Below, piece after piece: positions 3,901 to 35,004 of a stretch of DNA of 37,495 nt. Under the pieces are notes generated by a model. The model searched no databases, was not told where the DNA came from, and saw only the letters and a list, made by a program, of their open reading frames with translations. Source of the stretch: Thermoanaerobaculia bacterium (GTDB lineage Bacteria; Acidobacteriota; Thermoanaerobaculia; Thermoanaerobaculales; Sulfomarinibacteraceae); contig JAMOVQ010000106.1 of the NCBI GenBank assembly GCA_027067575.1, positions 1 through 37,495 on the forward strand, given 5' to 3'. A program made the translations under genes and the position numbers. The stretch's first letter is position 1. Each line of letters begins with the position of its first letter.

Positions 3901-5261
3901 TCACGGGCCGCGACCGCTGGCACCGCTGGGGTCTCGCCGCCATCCTCCTGGGCAACGCGGTGGGGTTCGCCGGAGTCGATCCGCCGGCGAGGGCGCTGAC
4001 CGCCCTTCTCATCCTTGCGCTCGTCCTCGACATGAAGGACGCCGTCCCTTCTCTCCCCCGGCCGGTCCGCCTTGCAGCGCTCGGGCTCGCGGCGACGGTC
4101 GTGCTCCAGCTCGTTCCGCTCCCTGCGGCCGTGCGCGGCCTCCTCCAGCCGGGCCTCGCCGATGTGATCTCACCGGGCTGGTCCCCCCTCTCCGTCGCAC
4201 CGTGGGCCACCATCGAGACGGCCGCCATATGGGTCCTCGCGGCCGGAATCACTCTCGTCGCCGCGAGGATGGCCCGGACCCGCTCGGGCCTTCCGGTGCT
4301 GCTCTGGATCGTGGCGCTCACCGGGGGCTTGCTCGCCCTGCTCGGCCTCGTCTCCGAGGCCGGCCTTCCGGACCGGGTCCTCCTGCTCCGTCCCAACGTG
4401 CAGGGAGGGAGTCCCTACGGTCCGTTCGTCAACGAGAACCATTTCGCCGTGGCGATGGAGCTGACGATCCCGGCAGCTGCGGCGCTCCTCGCCGTGGCGG
4501 CAAGGGGACTCGGAGCGGTTGGCGAGGCCCGCAGGCGCGCCCTGGCCTGGACGCTCGGCGCCGCCGTACTCGTCGTGCTCGGGCTCGCGGCACTGCTCCG
4601 GTGCCACTCCCGTGGCGGGATCCTCGCCATGGGGATCGCAGCGGTGGTGACGTTCCCCCTCTGGCGGCGGCGACGGCCGGGGAGGCGGCGACTGTGGACG
4701 GCCGTGGTCGTGCTCATCCTCGTGGGAGGAACCGTCCTGGCGTGGACACGGCTCCCCGCGCTGGCCGAGGACTTCAAGCAGCTCCTGGTAATCCGGGGCG
4801 TCGAGGGTAACGACCGCTGGGATCTCTGGCGGTCCACGCTCCGTCTCTGGACCCGGGCTCCCGCGCTGGGCACGGGGCTGGGAACGTACCGCCACGTCAT
4901 CGGCCTCGACGCGCCACCGACCGGGACTGCCGTCCTCGAACAGGCCCACAACGACTGGCTCGAATGGCTGGCGACGACGGGTGCTGCGGGCACCGCCGCG
5001 CTCCTCCTGGGCGTGGGATGGCTGGCCTGGTCGCTGCGGCCGGTCCGGCTCCGCTCGATGCGGTTCGAACGGCGCTACGCACTTGCAGCAGCCGCCATGG
5101 CCCTACTGGCGGCTGGACTCCACGAAACACTGGGGTTTGCGCTCCAGACGCCGCTCGACCGGTACCTGGCCGCCGTCTGGATCGGGCTCGTGGCCGGTCT
5201 CGAGACCCGCCGGCATCACGAACCGCCCGATGGGCGGCTCCCGGAGGAGGCAGACCGATGA
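3897..5261 (+). CDS. O-antigen ligase/polymerase-like membrane protein
   Basis: A 454-residue polytopic membrane protein with around ten or more hydrophobic segments and a large extracytoplasmic loop. Landmarks of the Wzy_C / WaaL family are visible: FVNENHFAVAMEL near residue 180, CHSRGG before the loop, and AHNDWLEWLATTG late in the protein, the region that normally carries the catalytic His. These proteins join or polymerise undecaprenyl-linked glycans on the periplasmic side of the inner membrane. Ligase cannot be told from polymerase by sequence alone, and no other glycan genes are nearby. The ATG overlaps the regulator stop by 4 nt, and its own stop overlaps the next start in the same way. 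Confidence 0.85.
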   Translation: MITGRDRWHRWGLAAILLGNAVGFAGVDPPARALTALLILALVLDMKDAVPSLPRPVRLAALGLAATVVLQLVPLPAAVRGLLQPGLADVISPGWSPLSVAPWATIETAAIWVLAAGITLVAARMARTRSGLPVLLWIVALTGGLLALLGLVSEAGLPDRVLLLRPNVQGGSPYGPFVNENHFAVAMELTIPAAAALLAVAARGLGAVGEARRRALAWTLGAAVLVVLGLAALLRCHSRGGILAMGIAAVVTFPLWRRRRPGRRRLWTAVVVLILVGGTVLAWTRLPALAEDFKQLLVIRGVEGNDRWDLWRSTLRLWTRAPALGTGLGTYRHVIGLDAPPTGTAVLEQAHNDWLEWLATTGAAGTAALLLGVGWLAWSLRPVRLRSMRFERRYALAAAAMALLAAGLHETLGFALQTPLDRYLAAVWIGLVAGLETRRHHEPPDGRLPEEADR

Positions 5262-5776
5262 CCCCCCTTCCCACCACACCGGACACCCTGCTCGCCCACG
5301 AGCGGCGTCTCCGAGTCCTCGTCGCCGCCGCGATCTTGCTGTTCGTCGCCCAGGCCGCCGTGGGGTTTCTCCTGCCCCGGGCCCGCCTGCTGCCCGGGCT
5401 CTCCTCGATCTGGATCACCGGACCCGCTCTCGCCGTGGGCCTGTGGCTGTCGCTCCGCGTCGACAGGGTCGCCGCACGGCTGGTGATCCGGGCACGGGAC
5501 CGGTACGTGATCTCCGGGAACGTCGACCGGCTCCTGAGGGATCACCTGCGCGTCTACCTGACCGTTCTCGCCGTACTCGAGGGGATCGGGCTGCTGGGGC
5601 TCCTCGTGGCCGTCTCCGGCGCAGGGCCGCGCGCCGCCCTCTGGTTCCATGGCGTCGCCGTGCTGCTCGCGGCCCTCGCCTGGCCCACCGACCACAAGGT
5701 CCGTCTCTACCTCGACCGCGCGGAGACGCTGCGGCGGCACAGGACGGACGCCGGAGCGGCCGAATCGGCGGACTGA
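5258..5776 (+). CDS. Small integral membrane protein, unknown function
   Basis: A 172-residue protein with four probable membrane helices in two pairs (about 18-35, 48-65, 98-118 and 124-140). The intervening stretch is rich in Arg and Asp, and the tail is charged. No family is recognised. It is the last gene of the kinase-regulator-ligase operon, starting inside the ligase stop (ATGA), and ends 57 nt before the convergent alaS stop. The coupling suggests a role with the ligase or in the same envelope response. Confidence 0.75.
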   Translation: MTPLPTTPDTLLAHERRLRVLVAAAILLFVAQAAVGFLLPRARLLPGLSSIWITGPALAVGLWLSLRVDRVAARLVIRARDRYVISGNVDRLLRDHLRVYLTVLAVLEGIGLLGLLVAVSGAGPRAALWFHGVAVLLAALAWPTDHKVRLYLDRAETLRRHRTDAGAAESAD

Positions 5777-5832
5777 CGGCGAAAGCCCCGGACGGCCGCC
5801 CGGGTCCCCGGCCAACCGCGGGCCTCCCCGGG

Positions 5833-8484
<2,652 letters not shown>

Positions 8485-13509: not shown

Positions 13510-13562
13510 CGGCCCGTTCCTCGTGGGGCGCTCGATCGTTGAATGGCGAAGGGCTCCGGCGT

Positions 13563-13712
13563 GGGGACAGTCCCGATCGTGACGGCCCTGGATTCTCTGG
13601 ATCGGCAACCGGAACATCGCTTCGCTCTTCCCTGGGTTCGTGGAGTGTGGGGCACCAGCTGGGAGTACTTCGTTTCGGCCGGGAATAGGGGAAGGGGACA
13701 GTGTTTGCCATT
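13563..13712 (+). repeat. Paired GGGGACAGT motifs in a gene-free island
   Basis: GGGGACAGT occurs at 13563-13571 (continuing as CCC to make an imperfect palindrome) and again in the same orientation at 13694-13702, followed by GTTTGCCATTT. Such motifs resemble intergenic sequences associated with REP/RAYT or IS200-like elements in other bacteria; this is from memory of the sequence style, with no search behind it. The 421-nt gap 13378-13798 holds no convincing gene besides these motifs and the hairpins at 13434-13509. Confidence 0.35.
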
Positions 13713-21969: not shown

Positions 21970-22047
21970 ATGGACCGTCGAGGAGAGACCGGGGGACGCT
22001 GCACGAAGGGTGGCTTTTCGGCCGTCCGTTCCGGAACGTCCCGATGA
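21970..22047 (+). CDS. Possible 25-residue leader peptide before crcB
   Basis: A short frame starts at an ATG preceded 5 nt upstream by GGGGAGG, a better ribosome-binding site than that of crcB. It ends in a TGA overlapping the crcB ATG by 4 nt (ATGA). The peptide is Arg/Gly/Ser-rich with one Cys and is unlike anything recognised. The arrangement would let ribosomes finishing this frame re-initiate at crcB. It could equally be chance in GC-rich DNA. Confidence 0.35.
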   Translation: MDRRGETGGRCTKGGFSAVRSGTSR

Positions 22048-22430
22048 CTGCCGCCCGCATCCTGGCGGTGGCGGCGGGCGGCGCGGTGGGTGCCGTGGCG
22101 CGCTACGCCCTCTCGGGGTGGGTCGCCTTCTCGACCCGGACCTCACCGTTCCCGTGGGGGACACTCTCCGTCAACGTGGCCGGAGCGGCGGTGCTCGGAC
22201 TCGTCATGGGTGCCGTGACCTCGGGACGGCTCGTCCTGCCTCCGGCGCTCCGGGACTTCCTGACCATCGGCCTGCTCGGTGCGTTCACGACGTTCTCGAC
22301 CTTCTCCTACGAGACCGTCCAGGCTGCGCGGCTCGGGTACGATCGGGTGGCCGCCACCAACGTCGCGGCGAGCCTGCTGCTGGGGCTCGCGGCGTGCTGG
22401 ATCGGCCTCAGACTCGGGCGGGCGCTGTAG
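22044..22430 (+). CDS. crcB: CrcB/Fluc fluoride channel
   Basis: A 128-residue membrane protein with four helices and the family landmarks GGAVGAVARY, WGTLSVNVAGA and LLGAFTTFSTFSYE, the last containing the TTFSTF fluoride-path motif. Fluc channels export fluoride as antiparallel dimers in the inner membrane; one gene suffices for a homodimer. The start has only a weak ribosome-binding site and overlaps the stop of a short upstream frame. A DUF190 gene follows 21 nt later, a common partner of crcB. No fluoride riboswitch could be recognised upstream. Confidence 0.95.
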   Translation: MTAARILAVAAGGAVGAVARYALSGWVAFSTRTSPFPWGTLSVNVAGAAVLGLVMGAVTSGRLVLPPALRDFLTIGLLGAFTTFSTFSYETVQAARLGYDRVAATNVAASLLLGLAACWIGLRLGRAL

Positions 22431-22451: not shown

Positions 22452-22802
22452 ATGGGACGACACATCGAGGGCAAGCTCGTGCGGATCTTCATCGGCGAGG
22501 GCGACCGGCACGGCCACAGGCCGCTCTACACCGCGATCGTCCACCTGGCGCGCGAGATGGGGCTCGGCGGCGCGACGGTCCTCCGCGGCATCGAGGGGTT
22601 CGGCGCGGACTCGGTGCTCCACACGGCCCGCCTGCTGCGGCTGTCCGAGGATCTGCCCATCGTCGTGGAGATCGTCGGCACCGAGCAGAAGCTGGGCCCG
22701 TTCCTGGAGAGGGTCGAGGCCATGCTCGACGAGGCCGGGTGCGGTGGCCTGATGACCGTTGAGCGCGTGGAGGTCGTGCGGTACGGACCGGGGCGGGCGT
22801 AG
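22452..22802 (+). CDS. DUF190 family protein
   Basis: A 116-residue soluble protein of the DUF190 family (PII-like fold): GKLVRIFIGEGDRHGHRPLY, the glycine-rich LGGATVLRGIEGFG, and LPIVVEIVGTEQKL. Genes of this family often sit beside crcB, and a role in fluoride or ligand sensing has been suggested; none is established. The start has GGGAGGG 7 nt upstream. The last 68 nt lie inside the left copy of a 196-bp direct repeat, and a second copy of this gene end occurs at 24417-24484. Confidence 0.92.
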   Translation: MGRHIEGKLVRIFIGEGDRHGHRPLYTAIVHLAREMGLGGATVLRGIEGFGADSVLHTARLLRLSEDLPIVVEIVGTEQKLGPFLERVEAMLDEAGCGGLMTVERVEVVRYGPGRA

Positions 22803-22930
22803 GGGACCGCACGGCTCCCGTCCTCACAGTCCAGCCATCAGCAGTCCCGGGTTCTCGACGATCGCCACGAGATCGGTCATGAACCGGGCGGCCTGGGCGC
22901 CATCGATCCAGCGGTGGTCGAACGAGACCG
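22735..22930. repeat. Left copy of 196-bp direct repeat
   Basis: This matches 24417-24612 base for base except at three positions (GG for AA at 22804-22805, and C for G at 22832). The repeat covers the last 68 nt of the DUF190 gene, the 21-nt intergenic gap and the last 107 nt of the convergent E2 gene. Outside these limits the sequences diverge at once. Here the left part is continuous with the intact DUF190 gene and the right part is a truncated E2 end. Confidence 0.97.
22824..22930 (-). pseudogene. 3' fragment of the E2 (pdhC) gene
   Basis: It encodes the last 34-35 residues of the dihydrolipoyl acyltransferase, including the catalytic motif FDHRWIDG, and ends with the same stop. It differs from the intact gene by one change near the end (Arg to Gly in the third-last to last residues). 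It has no start codon or upstream coding sequence and is a by-product of the repeat duplication. Confidence 0.9.
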
Positions 22931-23019
22931 GGACGGGACGATCTCGGTCGCGAGGACCGGGAGACAACGTTTACTGCACGACAAGAAGCCTCGCCACCGG
23001 CCTCACCACACAGGCACTA

Positions 23020-23048
23020 TTGAGCAGTTCCGCATAGGAATGTATACT
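23020..23048 (+). promoter_or_regulatory. Strong sigma-70-type promoter inside the insertion
   Basis: TTGAGC (23020-23025), a 17-nt spacer and TATACT (23043-23048) give the best promoter in the window, in locally AT-rich DNA. The spacer contains the inverted repeat TTCC/GGAA (23028-23031 and 23037-23040), a possible operator. Transcription would start near 23055 and yield a leader of about 46 nt. Confidence 0.75.
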
Positions 23049-23066
23049 GTTTTCAGAATCGCTATT

Positions 23067-23083
23067 GGGCCCGCGGAGGGCCC
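23067..23083 (+). promoter_or_regulatory. Leader hairpin before the ribosome-binding site
   Basis: GGGCCC (23067-23072) and GGGCCC (23078-23083) can pair across a 5-nt loop, ending just before the Shine-Dalgarno AAGGAGGG (23086-23093) of the gene at 23101. It could stabilise the mRNA 5' end or modulate translation. Confidence 0.4.
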
Positions 23084-23100
23084 GGAAGGAGGGCACAATC

Positions 23101-24351
23101 ATGAAACATATGAGGATGCTGACCGCCATGGCGTTGATGGTTGCGGCCTCGACAGTCGGGGCCCAGAACCTCCTCACCAACGGTACGTTCGATTCCGACC
23201 TGTCCGGGTGGGAGACCTATGACGACCGGGCCTCCTGGCGCGGCGACATGGGCAATACCCTCACCGGGGGTTCGGGGCCGGGGGCCGTCGAGATCCGCGG
23301 TGATGGAGCCGACTGCAACGGCGCCACCACAATGATCGGGCAAACGGTTGCGGTGGTTCCGGGGAAAACGATGAAGGTGCGTGTGGCCGCGTTCCTCCCG
23401 GGAGGGGACAACGAAGCGCTGGCCGTCAGCGCGAAGGTATACTGGAAGGACGCCTCCAACAACATCATCGCCACCACCGAGCTCACCCCTCAGTCGGTGG
23501 AACGGGACCAATGGTTCTGGATCGAGGCGGTGACGCGCGTGCCAGAGGGTGCGGCATACGGGGAGTTCCTGTTCGGAACAAAACTGCCGACTGGGAATGC
23601 ATGCACGGCAGGAGCGTGGGCGATTTTCGATGATGCCTGGCTCGGCACCATACCTCCCGAGCTGTTCGTCCCCGCCGCGGCCTCGGCCCCAGGAGCCAAC
23701 GGCACATATTGGTCGACCACGCTCTGGGCGATCAATCCCAATGACGTCGAGGTCCGCCTCGATGGGGCGTTTCTCCCGGCCGGACAGGACAACTCGGGAG
23801 CCTTGGCCTCGCTCCGGGCGATCACGACGATCCCGGCGCACGGCGCGACAGAGGTGACGGACGTCGTCGCCGCGCTCGGTGGTTCGGGCGCCGGAGGTCT
23901 TTTCCTGAGAGTCGTGGACGCCGCCACCGGCGACTCCCCTCCGGAGGGTATCGACGTTGTCACCTACACCTTCACCCCAAGCTCCTCGGGAGGCGGCAAC
24001 TACGGTCAAGGGATACCGGCGGTGACGCCAGGTGAGAAGGAGTCGGTTCGCTGCCCCGGCGTGCGCCACGACGGTAGCTTCCGCACCAACGTCGGCGTTC
24101 TCAACACCTCCGGGGAACAGATCTCCGTCGAGGTCGAGATCCGCGGGACCGACGGCACGGTTCTCGGCTCGGAGAGCTGGACCCTCCCGCCGTACGGCCA
24201 GCGTCAGGAGTCTGTGGCATCGCTCGGAGTGACCGGACTCGTGGCTGGATACGCAGTGGTGACACGGACGGCCGGCAGCGGGGGGTTCCGCGCCTACCTC
24301 TCCCGGGTTGACAACGCCACCGGCGACGCCGTGTACGTTCTCGGCCGATGA
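23101..24351 (+). CDS. Secreted multi-domain protein carried by the insertion (VDNAT-motif family)
   Basis: A 416-residue secreted protein. A signal peptide ends near STVGAQN (about residue 22). The next 170 residues begin LLTNGTFDSDLSGWE, the usual opening of a carbohydrate-binding-like jelly-roll domain (CBM4/9-like or discoidin-like). The C-terminal part holds two related beta segments (APGANGTYWSTTLW; RTNVGVLNTSG) and ends SRVDNATGDAVYVLG. That part resembles the protein encoded at 852-1703, which lacks the jelly roll. ATG 23101 has a strong AAGGAGGG ribosome-binding site. No catalytic motif is seen; binding to a glycan or surface is inferred. The gene sits alone between the 196-bp direct repeats and is followed by a perfect hairpin. 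Confidence 0.88.
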   Translation: MKHMRMLTAMALMVAASTVGAQNLLTNGTFDSDLSGWETYDDRASWRGDMGNTLTGGSGPGAVEIRGDGADCNGATTMIGQTVAVVPGKTMKVRVAAFLPGGDNEALAVSAKVYWKDASNNIIATTELTPQSVERDQWFWIEAVTRVPEGAAYGEFLFGTKLPTGNACTAGAWAIFDDAWLGTIPPELFVPAAASAPGANGTYWSTTLWAINPNDVEVRLDGAFLPAGQDNSGALASLRAITTIPAHGATEVTDVVAALGGSGAGGLFLRVVDAATGDSPPEGIDVVTYTFTPSSSGGGNYGQGIPAVTPGEKESVRCPGVRHDGSFRTNVGVLNTSGEQISVEVEIRGTDGTVLGSESWTLPPYGQRQESVASLGVTGLVAGYAVVTRTAGSGGFRAYLSRVDNATGDAVYVLGR

Positions 24352-24357
24352 CCGAAC

Positions 24358-24387
24358 GGAGCGGGGTGCTCTGGAGCACCCCGCTCC
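24358..24387. terminator. Perfect 14-bp terminator hairpin
   Basis: Arms GGAGCGGGGTGCTC and GAGCACCCCGCTCC are separated by 2 nt, starting 7 nt after the stop of the gene at 23101-24351. There is no T-run, only a pyrimidine-rich tail. It lies between convergent genes and could act on both strands, stopping the leftward pdh operon as well. Confidence 0.8.
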
Positions 24388-24416
24388 TCCTCATCACCTG
24401 ACCTGGCTGCAAGGCC

Positions 24417-24484
24417 CCGGGTGCGGTGGCCTGATGACCGTTGAGCGCGTGGAGGTCGTGCGGTACGGACCGGGGCGGGCGTAG
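24417..24484 (+). pseudogene. 3' fragment of the DUF190 gene
   Basis: It repeats the last 21 codons and the stop of the DUF190 gene that ends at 22802, with no start codon, and follows directly on the cargo terminator region. It is the left part of the right-hand direct repeat. Confidence 0.92.
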
Positions 24485-24612
24485 GAAACCGCACGGCTCC
24501 CGTCCTCACAGTCGAGCCATCAGCAGTCCCGGGTTCTCGACGATCGCCACGAGATCGGTCATGAACCGGGCGGCCTGGGCGCCATCGATCCAGCGGTGGT
24601 CGAACGAGACCG
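24417..24612. repeat. Right copy of 196-bp direct repeat
   Basis: This is the partner of 22735-22930, offset by 1682 bp, with three mismatches. Here the E2 end is continuous with the intact E2 gene, while the DUF190 end is an orphan fragment. Confidence 0.97.
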
Positions 24613-25789
24613 ACAGGTGCATCATCTTCCGGACGACGATGGCGCCGTCGCGGACCACCGGACGTTCGGCGATGGTGTGGAGTCCGATGATCGCGAGCTC
24701 GTCCCCGTTGATGATCGGCGTGGCGAACAGTCCGCCGAGGGGACCGATGTTGGTGACGGTCGAGGTGCCGCCCCGCAACTCGTCCAGTCCGAGCCGCCGT
24801 TCCCGGGCCCTGGCCGCAAGGTCCCCGATCTCCCGCGCAAGCTCCACGATGCTCTTGCGCTCCGCGTTCCGGACGACCGGAACGATCAGCCCCTCCGGCG
24901 TGTCCACGGCGATCCCGATGTTGTGGTACCGGTGGAGGAGGAGCTCCCCACGCTCCTCGTCCACCGTGGCGTTGAATTCCGGGTGCCGCTGGAGCGCCAT
25001 CACCACCGCCCTGACGAAGAACGGGAGCAGTGTCGGCCTGACGCCGTACCACCCGGCCACGGGCTCCTTCGCCCGCTCCCGCAGCGCCAGGAGCTCCGTG
25101 ACGTCGGCCTCGTCCACGTGGGTGACGTGGACGTGCCGCTCGACGGACCGCACCATGGCCTGAGCGATCACCTTCCGCAGGTGCGTCAGCGGGATCCGCT
25201 CCACCGGACCGTCAGGGGTGGTCTCCAGGACGCCTGTCACGGCGGGCCCGGCCGCGGCCCCGCCCCTCTCCCCTCCCCCCGCTGCGAAGACCTGGACCGT
25301 ACCCGCGGCGGACTCCGCCGGGACCTCCGCGGCACGGCGGACGTCCTCGTCCGTGATCCGGCCGCCGGGCCCCGTGCCGCGGACCGCCGCGAGGTCCACG
25401 CCGAGCTCCCGCGCCAGCCTGCGGGTGCGGGGCGTGGCCAGTGGACGCCTGGGCGGCCCGGAGACGGGCGTGTCCGCGGCCGGCGGCGGCTCCGGCGGGG
25501 CGGGAGCGGCCCCGCTTCCCGTCTCCTCCGCCGGATGGCCGGACGCCTCGCCGGCCTCCCCGACGGTCAACAGCGGCGCGCCGACGGGGATGGTGTCCCC
25601 GGGGGCGGCGTGGAGCTTCAGCACCACCCCGGCGTACGGCGTCGGCAGCTCCACCACCGCCTTGTCCGTCTCCACCTTGACCACCGGCTGGTCCCGCTCC
25701 ACGGTCTCCCCCTCGGCGACCAGCCACTCGACGATCGTTCCCTCGGCGATCCCCTCGCCAACGTCCGGCAACTCGAACACGTGGGCCAT
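24506..25789 (-). CDS. pdhC: Dihydrolipoamide acyltransferase (E2) of a 2-oxoacid dehydrogenase complex
   Basis: A 427-residue E2 with one N-terminal lipoyl domain (K43 in VETDKAVVELP), an Ala/Pro linker, a peripheral subunit-binding domain (about 114-150, TPRTRRLARELGVDLAAV) and a C-terminal acyltransferase domain with the catalytic SFDHRWIDG. It transfers the acyl group from E1 to CoA in the cytosolic complex. Pyruvate and branched-chain complexes cannot be separated from this sequence, so the symbol is provisional. No E3 gene is adjacent. It starts 1 nt after the E1 beta stop. Its last 107 nt are part of the direct repeat, and this copy is the intact one. Confidence 0.9.
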   Translation of the reverse strand: MAHVFELPDVGEGIAEGTIVEWLVAEGETVERDQPVVKVETDKAVVELPTPYAGVVLKLHAAPGDTIPVGAPLLTVGEAGEASGHPAEETGSGAAPAPPEPPPAADTPVSGPPRRPLATPRTRRLARELGVDLAAVRGTGPGGRITDEDVRRAAEVPAESAAGTVQVFAAGGGERGGAAAGPAVTGVLETTPDGPVERIPLTHLRKVIAQAMVRSVERHVHVTHVDEADVTELLALRERAKEPVAGWYGVRPTLLPFFVRAVVMALQRHPEFNATVDEERGELLLHRYHNIGIAVDTPEGLIVPVVRNAERKSIVELAREIGDLAARARERRLGLDELRGGTSTVTNIGPLGGLFATPIINGDELAIIGLHTIAERPVVRDGAIVVRKMMHLSVSFDHRWIDGAQAARFMTDLVAIVENPGLLMARL

Positions 25790-25790
25790 C

Positions 25791-26819
25791 TCAGAACTCC
25801 AGGGTCTCGCGCACCGCGGCCACGATCCGGTCGCGGTGCGGCAGGTACAGCCTCTCCATCCTCGCCAGCGGCATGACGGTGTCGAAACCCGTGACGCGCC
25901 TCACCGGGGCCAGGAGCTGGAGCAGGCACCGCTCCATGATCAGGGCGGAGATCTCGGCCCCGACGCCGGCCTGACGGGGCGCCTCGTGGACCACCACCGC
26001 CCGGCCCGTCCGGCCGACGCTCTCCACGATGGCGCCACGGTCCATCGGGTCGAGGGTCCGGAGATCGAGCACCTCGGCCTCCACTCCGTCCCGCGCCAGA
26101 AGCTCGGCGGCGGCCAGGGCCTGGGGCACCATGGCGCCCCAGGCGATCAGCGTGACGTCACGCCCCTTCCGGGCGAGCCGGGCCGGTCCGATGGGCACCC
26201 TGTGGCTCCCCTCCGGGACCTCATCCCTGGAGGAACGGTAGATCCGCTTGGGCTCCAGGAACAGCACCGGGTCGTCATCGAAGATCGCCTCGAGCAGCAG
26301 CCCCTTCGCGTCGGCCGGCGTGGAGGGCACCACGACCTTGATCCCGGGTGAGTGGACGAACAGCGCCTCGTAGCTCTCCGAGTGGTGCTCGGGCGCATGG
26401 ATGCCGCCGCCGTACGGCATCCGGATCACCATCGGCACGCCGAACCGGCCGCGGGTCCGGTTCCGCATCCGTGCCGCGTGAGCCAGGATCTGGTTGATCG
26501 CCGGGTAGACGAACCCCATGAACTGGATCTCCACCACCGGCCGCCAGCCCGTCATCGCCATGCCGATGGCCGTCCCCACGATGCCGCTCTCCGCCAGCGG
26601 CGTGTCGATGACCCGCTCCGGGCCGAACTCCTCGTACAGCCCCTCCGTGGCGCGGAAGACGCCGCCGTTCGGGCCGACGTCCTCCCCCATCACCAGCACC
26701 GACGGGTCCCTCCGCATCGCCTCGGCCATGGCGTCCCGGACCGCCTGGACGAGCGTCCTCCGGGAGGTCTCCCGCCGCGTCTCCGCCACCGTCGTCTCCA
26801 CCGCGGTCGTGGTGCTCAC
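25791..26819 (-). CDS. pdhB: 2-oxoacid dehydrogenase E1 beta subunit
   Basis: A 342-residue transketolase-like E1 beta subunit: LVQAVRDAMAEAMRRDPSVL, MGEDVGPNGGVFRATEGL, DTPLAESGIVGTAIGMAMTG, VIRMPYGGGIHAPEHHSES, and the C-terminal transketolase domain. It forms a heterotetramer with E1 alpha and helps bind thiamine diphosphate and the lipoyl arm of E2. Translation probably starts at the GTG overlapping the E1 alpha stop by 4 nt (26819), which ties its synthesis to that of the partner. The first 20 residues are Thr-rich and poorly conserved. Confidence 0.93.
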   Translation of the reverse strand: MSTTTAVETTVAETRRETSRRTLVQAVRDAMAEAMRRDPSVLVMGEDVGPNGGVFRATEGLYEEFGPERVIDTPLAESGIVGTAIGMAMTGWRPVVEIQFMGFVYPAINQILAHAARMRNRTRGRFGVPMVIRMPYGGGIHAPEHHSESYEALFVHSPGIKVVVPSTPADAKGLLLEAIFDDDPVLFLEPKRIYRSSRDEVPEGSHRVPIGPARLARKGRDVTLIAWGAMVPQALAAAELLARDGVEAEVLDLRTLDPMDRGAIVESVGRTGRAVVVHEAPRQAGVGAEISALIMERCLLQLLAPVRRVTGFDTVMPLARMERLYLPHRDRIVAAVRETLEF

Positions 26820-27889
26820 CGCTCCACCTCCCGTTCCAGCTCCGACGCCTGCTCCTCGAGGTACTCCGGCATCCGGGCGAACATGTGTCCGAAGATCTCC
26901 CGGGGCGGCTGTGGTTCCATCGCCATCATCCGCGCCACCATCTCCTCCACGACCTCTGCCGCCGCGGTCTCCGCCGCCGCCTGTCTGGTGTCGTCCCACC
27001 AGCCGCGGCCCTCCATGAACCGCCTCAGCCTGTCCAGCGGATCCCGTTGCGCCCACGACGCCACCTCCTCCGGGTCCCGGTACCGCGAGGCGTCGTCCGC
27101 CGTGGTGTGGTCGCCCATCCGGTAGGTGACCGCCTCGATCAGCGTGGGCCCCCCGCCCGTCCGCGCACGCTCGAACGCCCCGCGGCACGCCGCGTACACG
27201 GCGAACACGTCGTTGCCGTCCACCTGGATCCCGGGGAACCCGTACCCCCACGCACGCTGCGCCAGCGTCTCCGAGGCGGTCTGCCGGGACAGCGGCACCG
27301 AGATCGCCCACTGGTTGTTCTGGACGATGAAGACGGTGTTCGCCCGGAACACCCCGGCGAAGTTCATCCCCTCGTGGAAGTCGCCCTCCGAGGTCGAACC
27401 GTCGCCGATGAACGCCACCGCCACGGCCTGCTCGCCCCGCATCCGAAGCGACATCCCGACGCCCGCCGCGTGGGGGAACTGGCTGCCCACGGGGACCGGG
27501 ACCGGAAAGACCCGCGTCCCCGGCGGGAACGCCGATCCCCGCTCGTCGCCCGCCCAGTAGGCCAGCAGGGTCTCCCCCGGCACCCCCCGGACGATCATGG
27601 CCACGTGCTCGCGGAACGCCGGGATCAGCCAGTCGTCGTCCTCCATCGCCGCGACGGCCCCGACCTGGACGGCCTCCTGTCCCCGGAGCGAGGCCCAGGT
27701 CCCCATCCGCCCCTGCCGCTGGAGCGTGATCGCCTTCGCATCGAGCGTCCGTCCGAGCAGCATCCAGCGGTGCATGGTCTCCACCTGTTCCCTGTCCAGC
27801 TGCGGCATCAACGCCTCGTCCACGGTCCCGTCCGGCGCCAGGACCTCCAGCCGCCGGGTCACCGCCTCGTGGATCGTCATCACCGGCAT
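26816..27889 (-). CDS. pdhA: 2-oxoacid dehydrogenase E1 alpha subunit (PdhA-like)
   Basis: A 357-residue thiamine diphosphate-dependent subunit that decarboxylates the 2-oxoacid and acylates E2. The ThDP motif runs from GDG (162-164) to NN (191-192). Other landmarks are GRMGTWASLRGQEAVQVG and the phosphorylation-loop-like YRMGDHTTADDASRYR. The N-terminal region, with a C-x-D-G-type strand followed by MPQL, resembles Bacillus PdhA, which favours pyruvate. AGGAGAGGGG precedes the ATG at 27889. It is the first gene of the operon and is transcribed leftward from the gap 27890-28342. A GATACT hexamer (27930-27925) may be its -10. Confidence 0.93.
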   Translation of the reverse strand: MPVMTIHEAVTRRLEVLAPDGTVDEALMPQLDREQVETMHRWMLLGRTLDAKAITLQRQGRMGTWASLRGQEAVQVGAVAAMEDDDWLIPAFREHVAMIVRGVPGETLLAYWAGDERGSAFPPGTRVFPVPVPVGSQFPHAAGVGMSLRMRGEQAVAVAFIGDGSTSEGDFHEGMNFAGVFRANTVFIVQNNQWAISVPLSRQTASETLAQRAWGYGFPGIQVDGNDVFAVYAACRGAFERARTGGGPTLIEAVTYRMGDHTTADDASRYRDPEEVASWAQRDPLDRLRRFMEGRGWWDDTRQAAAETAAAEVVEEMVARMMAMEPQPPREIFGHMFARMPEYLEEQASELEREVER

Positions 27890-28342: not shown

Positions 28343-30763
28343 CTACTGTTCGTCCGCCGCGCAGCGGAACCCCGTGGTCTTGCTCCACGAGGCGGGAGCG
28401 CGGTGGCCGCGCTGGGAGACCCGGAGCTTCGCGGGAAAGTCGAGGTAGGAGCCGCCCCGGAGGACCCGGTCCGGCTCCTCGTCGCCGCTGCCGGTTATCT
28501 GAACCCACGGCCGGCCGTCCCGGGGAGCATCGCGGTAGCTCGGGTGGTAGACGTCCAGGATCCACTCCCGTGCGTTGCCGATCATGCCGAGCACACCCCA
28601 CCGGTTGGCGGGAAAGCTGCCCACCGGGGCGGAACCCATCCACTGGTCCGCCCCCTTGGTCCCGAACGCGTTGACCCGGTCCGGCAACCAGTCGGCGCCC
28701 CACGGGTAGCGCGTGTCCGCGCCGGCGCGCGCTGCGTACTCCCATTCGGCCTCGCTCGGAAGGCGTTTCCCGGCCCAGGATGCGTAGGCGCGCGCCTGGT
28801 ACCAGTCCACCCAGAGCACCGGGTGATCCGCGTAGGCGAGGTCGTCATACCGCTTCGTCTTGTGAGGCGGCGTACACCGGCCCGCCTCGACGCACCGGCG
28901 GTACTCGGCGTTGGTCACCTCGGTCCGGTCCAGCCAGAACCCCTCGAGGTGCACCGTGTGGGCCGGTTGCTCGTCCGTCTCGGCCTCGTCGTCCCCCCGC
29001 GAGCGCCCCATCAGGAACGACCCGGCAGGGATCCATACCATCGTCCGGCCGTCGCCTCTCCAGAGCCGTGCGGTACCGGCCCCGGGCACGAGGCTCGCCA
29101 TCAACGACCTCGAGGCTGTATCGGCGGGTGCCAGCTCGACCGCCAGGACGAGACAGCGGCGGGCACCCGCCGTGTCCTTCTTCCGTTCGAGCTCGGCCGC
29201 GGTCCGCTTGAGCACCCCCGCCACCGACTCGACGATCCGGGCCACCCGCTTCGCGACCTGCTCCGTGCCCTCCGACGCTGCCCTGAGACGGGCCAGATCG
29301 TCGCGCAACCGTCCAACCTCCGCCCTGGAGGCCGCATCGAGGAGATCTTTCTCGATCCGGCCGAACAGCTCGCTGGCCACCGGGTCCGACGGGTCCCGCT
29401 CCAGGATCGCCACGGCCCGGGGGAGCGCCTCCCACGGCCGCCCCTCGAGCAGGGTCCAGGTCAGGGCGCGCCGTTCGAGGTACCGCCGGTCGGCGGGATC
29501 GAACCCCGTCCCGTCCAGCTCTCGGCCGGGAACCGATTCAACGGGGAAGGCAGTGCGCGCCATCCCGAGGAGGACGTCGGACTCGATGGAGGGAACCGGG
29601 TCGGCAACACAGCGGAACCCCACGTCGTCGGTGAACGTCGTCGGGTCGAGCCACGCCCGCGCCGAGACCCGCGCCAGCTTGATGCTGCGGCGCCAGGATC
29701 CTCCGCGGATCACCCGGCCCCGGCCACCCTCGACCCACGCGGAACCGTCCTTCGGCGCCGCCACGATATTCTCGTGGTACGTGTCCTCACACCACTCCCA
29801 GGCGTTGGCCGCGAGATCGTACACACCCCAGCCGGTCCACGGAAACGAGGCGACGGGCGCCAGTTCCTCCCAGACGTCACGGCCCGAGGTACCCCGGACG
29901 TTGCACCGTTCACGCATCCGGTAGTTGCCCCACGGGTACCGCCAGTCCGTCCGCTTACCACGCGCCGCGCGCTCCCACTCGGACTCGCTGGGCAGCCGCC
30001 GTCCCGCCCAGCGGGCGTAGTCGGCGGCCTGCTCCCAGGTGACGTTCACCACCGGTTCCTTCGCGTGCGTCTCGTCCGCGAACGCATCCCCGTCCCGAGG
30101 CGGCGTGCACGCCCCGGACTCGACACACCGCCGGTACTGCCCGTTGGTCACCTCGGTCCGCTGGACCCAGAACCCGGGGCACCGCACCCACCGCAGATAC
30201 CGCTCGTCCGCCCGGCAGTCGCCGTCCTTCGGCGTGCACCCCATCAGGAACCGGAACGGCGGGAGCCACACGAGCTCGGCACCGTCGAGCAGCGAAACCC
30301 AGACCTGGCCCGGCTTCGGCCCCGACGGCGGCACGAGAAGCGCTGCGAGCGACTCCTCCACGCCGCACCCCGGATCGAGCTCGAGCGCCAGCGCCCACGC
30401 CCGCCCGGCCCGGTGCGGGTCCGTGGCCACCTCACGCCGCCCATACCGGGCAAGCTCCTCGGCGATGCGGTGCTCCACGCGGGAGACCCGGCTCGACGCG
30501 TCGGGCAGCGGGCTAAGAATCGCCTGGAAAGCGTCGAGGAGCATCCTGACCGCGGCCACGCGGCCCTCCCCGGCCTGGCGCACGAGGCTGACCTCCGCCC
30601 GTGCGAGAACCTTCCTGGCCTCCTGGTCCGAGGGGTTCTCCTGGAGCCTGGAGACGGCGCTCGGCAGTCTGCTCCACGGCCCGGCGCCTGCGTTGCCCGG
30701 GACCATGAGCAGAACGCCCGCGACGAGAAGGACGTGCATCGTTCGGGACGGAAGACCCTGCAT
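28343..30763 (-). CDS. Exported protein with two SUMF1 (FGE-like) domains
   Basis: An 806-residue protein with an N-terminal signal sequence, a helical region, a SUMF1/FGE-sulfatase domain (about 155-385), a helical linker with TPR-like character, and a second SUMF1 domain (about 575-806). Each has FLMG, EVTNxxYRRCVExGxCTPP, RLPSExEWExAAR and RGGS...GFRC. The paired active-site cysteines of formylglycine-generating enzymes, expected between RGGS and GFRC, are replaced (Ala/Arg in the first domain, Leu/Arg in the second), so FGE activity is unlikely. Such domains more often act as binding or scaffold modules. The start at 30763 is the first ATG before the hydrophobic core; ATG 30739 is an alternative. 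Confidence 0.85.
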   Translation of the reverse strand: MQGLPSRTMHVLLVAGVLLMVPGNAGAGPWSRLPSAVSRLQENPSDQEARKVLARAEVSLVRQAGEGRVAAVRMLLDAFQAILSPLPDASSRVSRVEHRIAEELARYGRREVATDPHRAGRAWALALELDPGCGVEESLAALLVPPSGPKPGQVWVSLLDGAELVWLPPFRFLMGCTPKDGDCRADERYLRWVRCPGFWVQRTEVTNGQYRRCVESGACTPPRDGDAFADETHAKEPVVNVTWEQAADYARWAGRRLPSESEWERAARGKRTDWRYPWGNYRMRERCNVRGTSGRDVWEELAPVASFPWTGWGVYDLAANAWEWCEDTYHENIVAAPKDGSAWVEGGRGRVIRGGSWRRSIKLARVSARAWLDPTTFTDDVGFRCVADPVPSIESDVLLGMARTAFPVESVPGRELDGTGFDPADRRYLERRALTWTLLEGRPWEALPRAVAILERDPSDPVASELFGRIEKDLLDAASRAEVGRLRDDLARLRAASEGTEQVAKRVARIVESVAGVLKRTAAELERKKDTAGARRCLVLAVELAPADTASRSLMASLVPGAGTARLWRGDGRTMVWIPAGSFLMGRSRGDDEAETDEQPAHTVHLEGFWLDRTEVTNAEYRRCVEAGRCTPPHKTKRYDDLAYADHPVLWVDWYQARAYASWAGKRLPSEAEWEYAARAGADTRYPWGADWLPDRVNAFGTKGADQWMGSAPVGSFPANRWGVLGMIGNAREWILDVYHPSYRDAPRDGRPWVQITGSGDEEPDRVLRGGSYLDFPAKLRVSQRGHRAPASWSKTTGFRCAADEQ

Positions 30764-30774
30764 CGGCGACTCAC

Positions 30775-30806
30775 ATTGTACCCCCATCCACGGACACGGG
30801 TACACT
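30775..30806. promoter_or_regulatory. Divergent -10 hexamers between two genes
   Basis: On the minus strand TACAAT (30780-30775) lies 11 nt before the SUMF1 gene start. On the plus strand TACACT (30801-30806) ends 6 nt before the GTG at 30813. No -35 is clear for either. The rightward message would be leaderless or nearly so. Confidence 0.4.
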
Positions 30807-31481: not shown

Positions 31482-32743
31482 CGGAGACGGTCCAGATCGA
31501 GGGGCTCGGGGGACGGGGACGGGGCGTCACGCATACCGTGGAGGGCGTCTGCTTCGTCCCCGGAGCGTTGCCGGACGAGACGGTGACGATCGGCGAGCCG
31601 CAGGCGCGGCACGGCGTGTGGGAGGCCCCCTTGCTGGGCGTCTCCGGCCCCGGCCATCCCGCACGGAACCCGGAACCGTGCGGTCACGCGGACCGGTGCG
31701 GCGGGTGCGACTGGCCCCACGTCCTGCCGGAACCCGGCGCCGAGCTCAAGCGGGAGATCGCCGCAGCGGCGGCCCGGACCCATCCGGAGCTCGCCGCACG
31801 CCTCCGCGAGGCCCCCGTGATCCCCTCGCCGCCGGCCTACCGCCTGCGCGCACGTTTTCACTGGGACCCGGGCCGCGGCGTCCTCGGGTTCTACCGCCGC
31901 CGGAGCTGGACTGTCACCGGCATCGCGGGGTGCCGGCTGCTCTCCCCCCGTCTCGCGAAGACCCTCCCCCGGCTCGAAGCGATCCTGCGCGACACCGTCC
32001 CCGGCACGGTGGACCTCGAATGGCTGGAGGACCTCGAGGGCCGGGCGGCTGTCGCCGCCCTGAGACCCGGCCGAGGCGGACCCGACGCCGTTCCCGAGGC
32101 GTGGCTCCCGCCGCGGTCCACGGCCGGCGAGCTGGTGGACGGCTGGCGTCTCCTGACCCGTTCGGGCCGTGACACCGGAGGCTGGGGCACGCGCTCGGTC
32201 ACCATGACGCTCCCCGTGCCGCTCTCCGTCCCCGTCGGCGCGTTCTTCCAGGTCAACCGGCACCTGGTCCCCGTCATCTTCCGGGAGACGGCCCGCCTCG
32301 TCGGCCCCGGGAACGCCCCGGTCTGGGACCTCCACGCCGGGGTCGGACTGCTCGCCGCCGCAGCCTCGACAACGGGCGACAGGCCACTCACCCTGGTGGA
32401 GCCGTTCCGGCCGGCCGGCCGGGCGGCCGCGGAGAACCTGCCGGCCGCCCGCGTGGTGGTGGGCCGGACGGCCGAAGCGTACCTCGCCCGGCACCGCAGG
32501 CTCGCCCGGGAGGCCGTCGTGCTCACCGATCCGCCGCGTTCGGGGATGACGCCGAAGCTCCGGCACCAGCTCGCCGGGTGGCACCCCGCGCGGATCGTCT
32601 CCATGGCCTGCAACGCCGCCACCTGGGCCCGGGACGTGGCGTTTCTCACCGCCCACGGCTACCGCCTGGCCGAGGTGATGCTCCTCGACCTCTTCCCGTT
32701 CACCTCCCACGTGGAGATCCTCTCGCGGCTGGAGGCCGTGTGA
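31478..32743 (+). CDS. RlmD/TrmA-family 5-methyluridine RNA methyltransferase
   Basis: A 421-residue SAM-dependent enzyme. An N-terminal TRAM-like RNA-binding domain (EGLGGRGRGVTHTVEG) is followed by the [4Fe-4S] ligands C68, C74, C77 and C152, and by the Rossmann MTase domain with DLHAGVGLLA, LTDPPRSGM and the nucleophile C378 in MACNAATWARD. Family members methylate C5 of uridine in 23S rRNA or tRNA. The presence of TRAM and all four cluster cysteines favours the RlmD/RumA group over TrmA, but the target base cannot be assigned. It is translationally coupled to both neighbours. Confidence 0.9.
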   Translation: MTETVQIEGLGGRGRGVTHTVEGVCFVPGALPDETVTIGEPQARHGVWEAPLLGVSGPGHPARNPEPCGHADRCGGCDWPHVLPEPGAELKREIAAAAARTHPELAARLREAPVIPSPPAYRLRARFHWDPGRGVLGFYRRRSWTVTGIAGCRLLSPRLAKTLPRLEAILRDTVPGTVDLEWLEDLEGRAAVAALRPGRGGPDAVPEAWLPPRSTAGELVDGWRLLTRSGRDTGGWGTRSVTMTLPVPLSVPVGAFFQVNRHLVPVIFRETARLVGPGNAPVWDLHAGVGLLAAAASTTGDRPLTLVEPFRPAGRAAAENLPAARVVVGRTAEAYLARHRRLAREAVVLTDPPRSGMTPKLRHQLAGWHPARIVSMACNAATWARDVAFLTAHGYRLAEVMLLDLFPFTSHVEILSRLEAV

Positions 32744-35004
32744 CCGCCGGGGAGCGCTCCGCGGCCGTGCTCTGGCCACTCCTCGCCTTCGCGGGGGGCG
32801 TCCTGGCGGGCGCCGCGCCGGCTCTTCACTGGAGCGCGACGCCACATCCGGCCGCCGCGGCAACGGCCCTGGCGGGCGCGGGTCTTCTCGCCGTCGGGTT
32901 CGGGCTCGTCCGGCCCGAGGGCAGGACACGGATGCTCCTGGCCGCCGGCCTGGCCCTCGGGTTCGCCTCGGGAACGGTCCACACCGCCCGCCGGGCGCGG
33001 CTCGTTCGGGCCGTCCCCGGCGGAACGGTGCTCCGCATCCGGGCCGTCCCCATCGAGGGGTGGACGCCCTCCAGGTGGGGCGTCGCCACGCGCGCGAGGG
33101 TCGAGGACGCCCGCGCCGGGAGCCGGACCGTCCGGCTTCCGTCGCCGCTCCGGCTCGAGCTCCGCGGACGCGTCCCTCCTGGAACGCTGCCACCACCCGG
33201 CACGACGGTGGAGGCACTGGTCCGGATTCGACACGTCGACCGTCCGGGAGGCCGGAGCGTCCTGGTGGCGAAGTCGGCCCGCCTCCTCCGGGCCGCCGGC
33301 CCCCCCGGAGGTCTCCCGGGGCTCCGGCAACGGCTCGCAAACCGGCTCTTCGAGGCGGCGGGAACCTCCGCGGCGGCGATCCGTGCCGCCGAGCTCGACG
33401 CGGCCCTCGCCCTCGGGCGGCGCGATCTCCTTCCCGCGGGTACGGTGGAGCGGTGGCGGGCGTCGGGCCTCGCCCACGTCCTCGCCGTCAGCGGCCTCCA
33501 CGTGGGGATCGTCGCCGGCCTGGCGTGGCTCGTTGGCACCGCAGCGGGCCTCGCGCCGGGGCCACGCCGCCTCGCCGTGATGGCCCTGATGCCCGCCTAC
33601 GCGCTGCTGGCTGGCGCCTCACCCTCGGCGATCCGCGCCACGGCGATGATCGAAATCTACCTGCTGGCCCGGCTCCTCGGGCGGCATGTCATCCCACTCG
33701 GAGCCGTCGCTCTCGCCGCAACCGTCATGGTGCTCGCCGCGCCCAGCCTCCTGCTCCGGCCCGGCTTCCAGCTGACCGTGCTCGTCACGGCCGCGATCCT
33801 CCGCTGGGCGCCGCCCCTCGCCCGTCGCCTTCCCTTGCCCGAGACCGCCGCGACCGCGGTCGCCGTTCCCGTGGTTGCCCAGCTCGCCGCCATGCCGCTC
33901 ACCGGGTGGTGGTTCGGGCGGGTCGTCCCGGCGGGGATCGTGACGAACCTCGCGGGACTCGCACTGCTCCCGGTCCTGATCGTCGCAGCACTGGCCGCAA
34001 CCGGCCTCGCCGCGATCCTGCCTCCCCTGGCGGCCATCCCGATCGCGGTCACGGGGGCCGCGTCCCGGCTCCTCGTCGCCGCGGGCACCCCGGCGCGTGC
34101 CCACGCGGTTCCGCTCCCACACCCTCCGGCCGCGGTCACAGCACTCGGCCTCGTCCTCGCGCTGCTCGCCATCCTGCCCGGTCGGACCGGGCGCCGGGCG
34201 CTTGGCGGAGCGCTGGTCGCCGGCGTCCTCCTTCTCCTCCTGCCGGCGAGCCACCGGAACCACGCACCGGTGACCCTGCTGCCGGTCGACGACGGCGCCG
34301 CGGTCCTGATCGACCTCCCGGACGGCCCGATCCTCCTGGATGGCGGCCGCCGGCCCCTTGAGGCGGACCGACTCCTGCGGGACGCGGGCGTCGGGCCCCT
34401 CCAGGCCGTGGTCGCCAGCCACACCGACGAGGACCACGCCGGAGGCATTCCCGCCGTGCTCCGGGACCATCCGGCCGGACTCCTGCTCCTGCCACGGTGG
34501 ATGGCATCCTCGCCGCAGGCCGTTCCCCTCCTCCGGGCCGCCCGCCACCGCGATACGCGGGTCGTCCCCCTCGTCCGCGGCGTCGCCGTCGCGATCGGGA
34601 CGACCCACCTGGAGACGCTCTGGCCCCCGGCCACCCCCCCGCCCGGGGGGAGCGGCAACGACCGCTCACTCGTGCTCCAGCTCCGAGCCGCCGACTGCAC
34701 GGCGCTGCTGCCGGGCGACACCACACGCCGGGTGGAGCCGCGCTACGCCACGGCCGTCGCCTCGGGCGGCCTGCTCGTCGTCCCGCACCACGGAAGCCGC
34801 AGCTCCTGCTCGAGCCTGCTCCTCGCCAGGGTGGCCCCACAGGCGGCACTGATACCCGCCGCCCCGGGAACCCCCTACCACCATCCGGCGCCGGAGACGC
34901 TGTCGCGGCTCCGAAGGGCCGGGATCCCGTTCCATGTCGCCCGCTGGACGCCCTGGTGCGGCGCGACGCCCGACGCCGCCGGGCGCTGGAGGCTCGAACC
35001 GTGA
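32740..35004 (+). CDS. comEC: ComEC/Rec2 DNA-uptake channel
   Basis: A 754-residue polytopic membrane protein. N-terminal membrane helices and an OB-like region come first (to about 200), then the Competence domain (GLAHVLAVSGLHVGIVAGL), and then a C-terminal metallo-beta-lactamase domain with H561-T-D-E-D-H566 and VVPHHGSRSS. ComEC carries single-stranded DNA across the inner membrane during transformation, and the lactamase domain may degrade the other strand. The full three-part architecture suggests functional competence, although no other uptake gene is in the window. The GTG start lies in the preceding stop (GTGA). Confidence 0.95.
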   Translation: MTAGERSAAVLWPLLAFAGGVLAGAAPALHWSATPHPAAAATALAGAGLLAVGFGLVRPEGRTRMLLAAGLALGFASGTVHTARRARLVRAVPGGTVLRIRAVPIEGWTPSRWGVATRARVEDARAGSRTVRLPSPLRLELRGRVPPGTLPPPGTTVEALVRIRHVDRPGGRSVLVAKSARLLRAAGPPGGLPGLRQRLANRLFEAAGTSAAAIRAAELDAALALGRRDLLPAGTVERWRASGLAHVLAVSGLHVGIVAGLAWLVGTAAGLAPGPRRLAVMALMPAYALLAGASPSAIRATAMIEIYLLARLLGRHVIPLGAVALAATVMVLAAPSLLLRPGFQLTVLVTAAILRWAPPLARRLPLPETAATAVAVPVVAQLAAMPLTGWWFGRVVPAGIVTNLAGLALLPVLIVAALAATGLAAILPPLAAIPIAVTGAASRLLVAAGTPARAHAVPLPHPPAAVTALGLVLALLAILPGRTGRRALGGALVAGVLLLLLPASHRNHAPVTLLPVDDGAAVLIDLPDGPILLDGGRRPLEADRLLRDAGVGPLQAVVASHTDEDHAGGIPAVLRDHPAGLLLLPRWMASSPQAVPLLRAARHRDTRVVPLVRGVAVAIGTTHLETLWPPATPPPGGSGNDRSLVLQLRAADCTALLPGDTTRRVEPRYATAVASGGLLVVPHHGSRSSCSSLLLARVAPQAALIPAAPGTPYHHPAPETLSRLRRAGIPFHVARWTPWCGATPDAAGRWRLEP

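Follow-up and report, generated by a model that had tools for sequence, protein, structure and literature searches.

A secreted-protein gene flanked by a duplicated 196-bp convergent gene junction in a Thermoanaerobaculia bacterium

In the genome of a Thermoanaerobaculia bacterium (assembly GCA_027067575.1), a single gene encoding a probable secreted protein was located between two direct copies of a 196-bp segment, which carries the junction of two convergent genes, one for a DUF190 protein and the other for the dihydrolipoyl acyltransferase E2. The whole stretch of DNA analyzed, hereafter the window, comprised 37,495 nucleotides of contig JAMOVQ010000106.1. The repeat coordinates, the 196-bp length, the spacing of 1682 bp and the three mismatches reported in the initial annotation were all exact on recomputation, and the repeat-flanked arrangement of this cargo gene was confirmed as real. 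It was probably generated by a single, recent insertion of a foreign transcription unit of lower GC content at the convergent DUF190/E2 junction, with duplication of the 196-bp target.

The two copies were 98.5% alike, and the mismatches (positions 22804, 22805 and 22832; GG and C in the left copy, AA and G in the right) left uninterrupted identical blocks of 69, 26 and 98 bp. Both copies had the composition given for the left copy in Table 1, the gene ends including their stop codons, which lay 21 bp apart. The DUF190 gene was whole on the left of the insert and E2 was whole on the right, each reappearing as a fragment on the far side; this reading of the repeat, which had been made from the sequence at the outset, was borne out, and the Pfam identities of both neighbours held. 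The segment between the copies was 1486 bp long and contained one gene in one transcription unit, with a GC content of 65.3% compared to 71.2% for the window, which placed it in the lowest 2.5% of windows. No inverted repeat pair of at least 30 bp bounded the insert, and neither IS copies nor the long terminal inverted repeats of a transposon were found. No IS, transposase or integrase was detected on the insert, where the only gene matched CBM_4_9 and PHROG matches numbered 0, nor did the scanned window genes include a recombinase. The DUF190-E2 junction sequence had no further copy elsewhere in the genome, and no structured RNA was matched by Rfam in the window. The earlier proposal of a single-gene insertion between duplicated neighbour ends, made without a recombinase and with a repeat too long for a transposon duplication, was supported.

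Table 1. Features of the cargo locus and its surroundings, in window coordinates
Feature	Position	Strand	Basis or detail
crcB (fluoride channel family), upstream partner of DUF190	22044..22430	+	Pfam CRCB
DUF190 gene, intact left neighbour	22452..22802	+	Pfam DUF190, E 1e-36
Left junction-repeat copy	22735..22930	.	DUF190 3' 68 nt, 21-bp spacer, 107-nt E2 3'-end fragment
Orphan E2 3'-end fragment	22824..22930	-	One change, MAGL for MARL
Promoter-like site of cargo, TTGAGC-17-TATACT	23020..23048	+	Consensus match only, 9/12
Leader hairpin GGGCCC-GCGGA-GGGCCC, ahead of ribosome site	23067..23083	+	z -1.1 vs shuffles, not significant
Cargo gene, predicted 416-aa secreted protein	23101..24351	+	Signal peptide by inspection; CBM_4_9; C-terminal domain
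Hairpin 3' of cargo, perfect 13-bp stem, without U-tract	24358..24387	+	-29.3 kcal/mol, z -5.4
Right junction-repeat copy	24417..24612	.	Repeat comparison
Orphan DUF190 3'-end fragment	24417..24484	+	Sequence comparison
E2 (dihydrolipoyl acyltransferase), intact right neighbour	24506..25789	-	Pfam
E1 beta (ORF coordinates), same operon as E2	25791..27311	-	Pfam
E1 alpha, same operon as E2	26816..27889	-	Pfam
ComEC domain, DNA-uptake type protein	32578-35001		Domain match in window

The cargo protein was composed of a CBM_4_9 domain (residues 22-143) and a C-terminal domain (about residues 184-413), the latter matching more than 30 further times in this genome, and it is probably secreted and sugar-binding. 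No solved structure related to the cargo was found, and the single-sequence structure model, with a mean pLDDT of 45, did not enter a fold search. The signals of the transcription unit were weaker than first described. A promoter-like site was present in front of the gene and matched 9 of 12 consensus positions, and the folding of the leader hairpin was no better than that of shuffled sequences. The stem behind the gene was perfect as claimed; lacking a U-tract, it does not qualify as a canonical intrinsic terminator.

In order to judge the repeat against chance, 1200 gene-sized control intervals were drawn at random from the genome's own and related sequence. The flank-to-flank match at the cargo locus reached 341 bits compared to 45.5 bits for the best control, which excluded a chance origin. 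The initial annotation had suggested looking for other single genes with duplicated neighbour ends in the same genome. No other gene-sized unit was bounded by a comparable repeat in the 674 kb sampled, where the remaining repeats were tandem or, by appearance, internal to repetitive proteins. A 79-bp imperfect repeat (28864/30097) lay inside one protein with two sulfatase-modifying-factor domains at 28346-30805 of the window. Units of a family of about 137 bp were dispersed in the genome, often in tandem and near contig ends, and contigs seem to break in them (window 13562-13683; L164, L168, L173, L175, L185, L188, L194 and L199).

Since the genome is a draft of 191 contigs, the joining of two strains or the misplacing of a gene by the assembler was considered as a source of the arrangement. 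An exact terminal overlap of 127 bp was common to two contigs, and others showed 124 bp with an offset of 3, indicating assembly at k=127. The longest identical block of the repeat being 98 bp, all 127-mers across either copy are unique, so the assembler did not have to guess the path through the repeat. That the two copies stem from repeat collapse is unlikely, and an assembly error of any of these kinds was judged very improbable. Two other contigs of the genome (C75 and C145; L177 and L190) consisted entirely of N.

The age of the insertion was approached through the junction itself, by the comparison with related genomes which the initial annotation had suggested. The crcB-DUF190 pair and the E1 alpha-E1 beta-E2 operon were both conserved in the relatives read. 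DUF190 and E2 adjoined in no relative examined; within the loci read, this adjacency was present in the source genome alone, the gene after DUF190 in relatives being another one, and an empty DUF190-E2 site without cargo was not found among these loci. The search with E2 in GTDB contigs returned distant matches only. Furthermore, in 14 of 16 relatives the gene following E2 was E3, usually no more than a few bases away, while in the source genome E3 was placed on contig C158 among other genes, leaving the E1-E2 operon (24506-27889) without an E3 neighbour. These comparisons suggested an origin of the DUF190-E2 junction most likely within this lineage, and as each repeat copy holds the lineage-specific junction, its duplication would be younger still. 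In this way, the claim of a recent event gained indirect support. Near its end, the E2 fragment of the left copy carried G in place of the R present in the intact E2 and in most relatives; two relatives also had G. This change would fit a decaying left fragment.

In the relative with the closest DUF190 (G004), a low-GC insert of 5.3 kb was located directly behind DUF190, before a convergent uvrC, and was bounded by 54-bp, 89% copies of the uvrC 3' end (L059 11028-11081 and 16328-16381). This resemblance lends something to the idea that the cargo locus is an integrase-type island at a gene 3' end from which the integrase has since been lost. However, the repeat in the window consists of two gene ends and, with 196 bp, goes far beyond an attachment core; the insert carries one gene only, and an integrase with a short core in one 3' end was not found, which makes an island origin quite improbable. 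The insert of G004 carried a gene pair resembling VapBC. In another relative (G008, L105 about 4800-7000), a single convergent gene for a probable secreted protein separated the E2 and E3 genes of one operon, and no long direct repeat was found around it.

Full-length homologues of the cargo with both domains were detected in about a third of the genomes searched from the order, mostly at one locus per genome, and a sample of 396 genomes of the phylum yielded none outside the order. The nearest ones were 40-45% identical and occupied non-syntenic loci, and the loci of the homologues had no neighbours in common. Even in two genomes of the same genus (G009 and G013) the homologues were placed at different loci, a pair of 82% identity from two genera had different flanks, and the DNA similarity of the best pairs ended at the gene boundary. 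Flanking repeats above 50 bits were observed at 2 of the 12 cargo loci, counting the one in the window, compared to 0 of 1200 control intervals. The second case, 1 of the 11 other homologues, belonged to G034, in which the homologue lay between direct 92-bp copies, 96% alike, of its neighbour gene's 3' end (L159 6201-6292 and 7767-7858), beside a convergent gene. On this ground the two-domain CBM-type gene might be seen as a recurrent single-gene mobile unit of the order, which, free of any enzyme of its own, would enter gene 3' ends beside a convergent gene, leave long target duplications (196 bp here and 92 bp in G034) and be gained and lost precisely; we regard this as doubtful. The adjacent gene and the cargo homologue of G034 share the C-terminal domain, so that recombination between paralogous C-terminal domains is an alternative source of the 92-bp repeat and may have produced it. 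In G001, a 3359-bp contig whose two ends were identical over 88 bp (L160 1-88 and 3272-3359) also encoded a protein with the C-terminal domain of the cargo, together with two small genes resembling a toxin-antitoxin pair; the contig could be a circle or a repeat collapsed in assembly.

Two Helicobacter pylori genomes provided the description of insertion with long target duplication (Nobusato et al. 2000, Gene 259:99), on which Furuta et al. 2010 is a further source. In papers that cite this work (PMC1643837, PMC3031569, PMC3874152), such insertions often involve restriction-modification genes, and the duplications are given as long, variable in size and around 100 bp in order of magnitude. 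The present locus resembled this description in that a gene unit without a recombinase was flanked by direct target repeats of the order of 100 bp, had a GC content below that of the genome and was found near rearrangements. Differently, the cargo was a single secreted CBM-type protein in another lineage; restriction-modification genes, the usual cargo but not a defining one, were absent. With 196-bp, 98.5% direct target duplications and an insert free of IS, transposase and integrase, the locus has the anatomy of an insertion with long target duplication, as read from the repeats themselves. The event is ordinary in kind and unusual in cargo.

Based on this anatomy, a foreign unit of 1486 bp, consisting of promoter, secreted CBM-type gene and 3' hairpin, would have entered the DUF190/E2 junction once, and the 196 bp surrounding the entry site would have been duplicated, with one copy coming to lie on each side. 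Such an event would not be site-specific, with one or both ends joined without homology. The most likely route may be copying of incoming DNA during repair or replication that re-entered the target 196 bp behind the place where it had left; alternatively, a short-lived circle with one junction copy could have been integrated. Both template switching and small-circle integration fit as the molecular route. Since the window codes for a ComEC-type protein, taken-up DNA is a possible source. The search for Ku was negative, which makes non-homologous end joining unlikely. Naturally competent bacteria likewise join foreign DNA without a recombinase by homology-facilitated illegitimate recombination, but this process depends on homology at one side of the DNA that comes in (discussed in PMC2884548).

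Homologous recombination offers a further explanation, in which a 1682-bp circle made of one junction copy and the cargo, released from a cell that was already repeat-flanked, entered the chromosome by Campbell-type integration. Exactly the observed anatomy would result, and the 1.5% difference between the copies would fit two strain alleles. In Arabidopsis, a circle model was likewise proposed for single-gene transposition with flanking genic direct repeats (PMC2869330); there, too, one gene moved and the repeats were homologous to gene sequence of the target site, whereas the genomes are those of plants and the target was verified in a sister species. Nevertheless, the donor must already have possessed both junction and cargo, so this explanation accounts for spread and not for origin; a circle was not observed, and we consider this explanation unlikely; if true, the locus could come and go within the species. 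A point against the single insertion is that the three mismatches could also reflect the origin of one repeat copy in another strain.

As for the fate of the single insertion that we favour, selection would retain such inserts at convergent 3' ends because neither neighbour is harmed. Virtual deletion through either copy left DUF190 unchanged and E2 either unchanged or with the single change R426G, in agreement with the claim that recombination spares both neighbours. Clean loss of the cargo through the repeats is therefore possible in principle on these in silico products, and RecA could, at a low rate, delete the unit via the 98-bp identical block and so bring back the empty site. Such deletion would amount to loss and not to a regulated switch. 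Phase-variable or programmed excision between the repeats would benefit from the readable neighbours in both virtual products, but the scanned genes of the window include no recombinase, the genome has no additional junction copy, the locus was not observed in a second state, and re-entry of the circle would be a rare RecA event; such a switch was considered extremely unlikely.

Insertion with long target duplication, so far known mainly from restriction-modification genes of Helicobacter, would thus gain a case from an unrelated lineage in which the cargo is a plain gene for a secreted protein. The empty site is predictable base by base and can be searched for in population reads, and its frequency would measure the gain and loss of single accessory genes without mobile elements.
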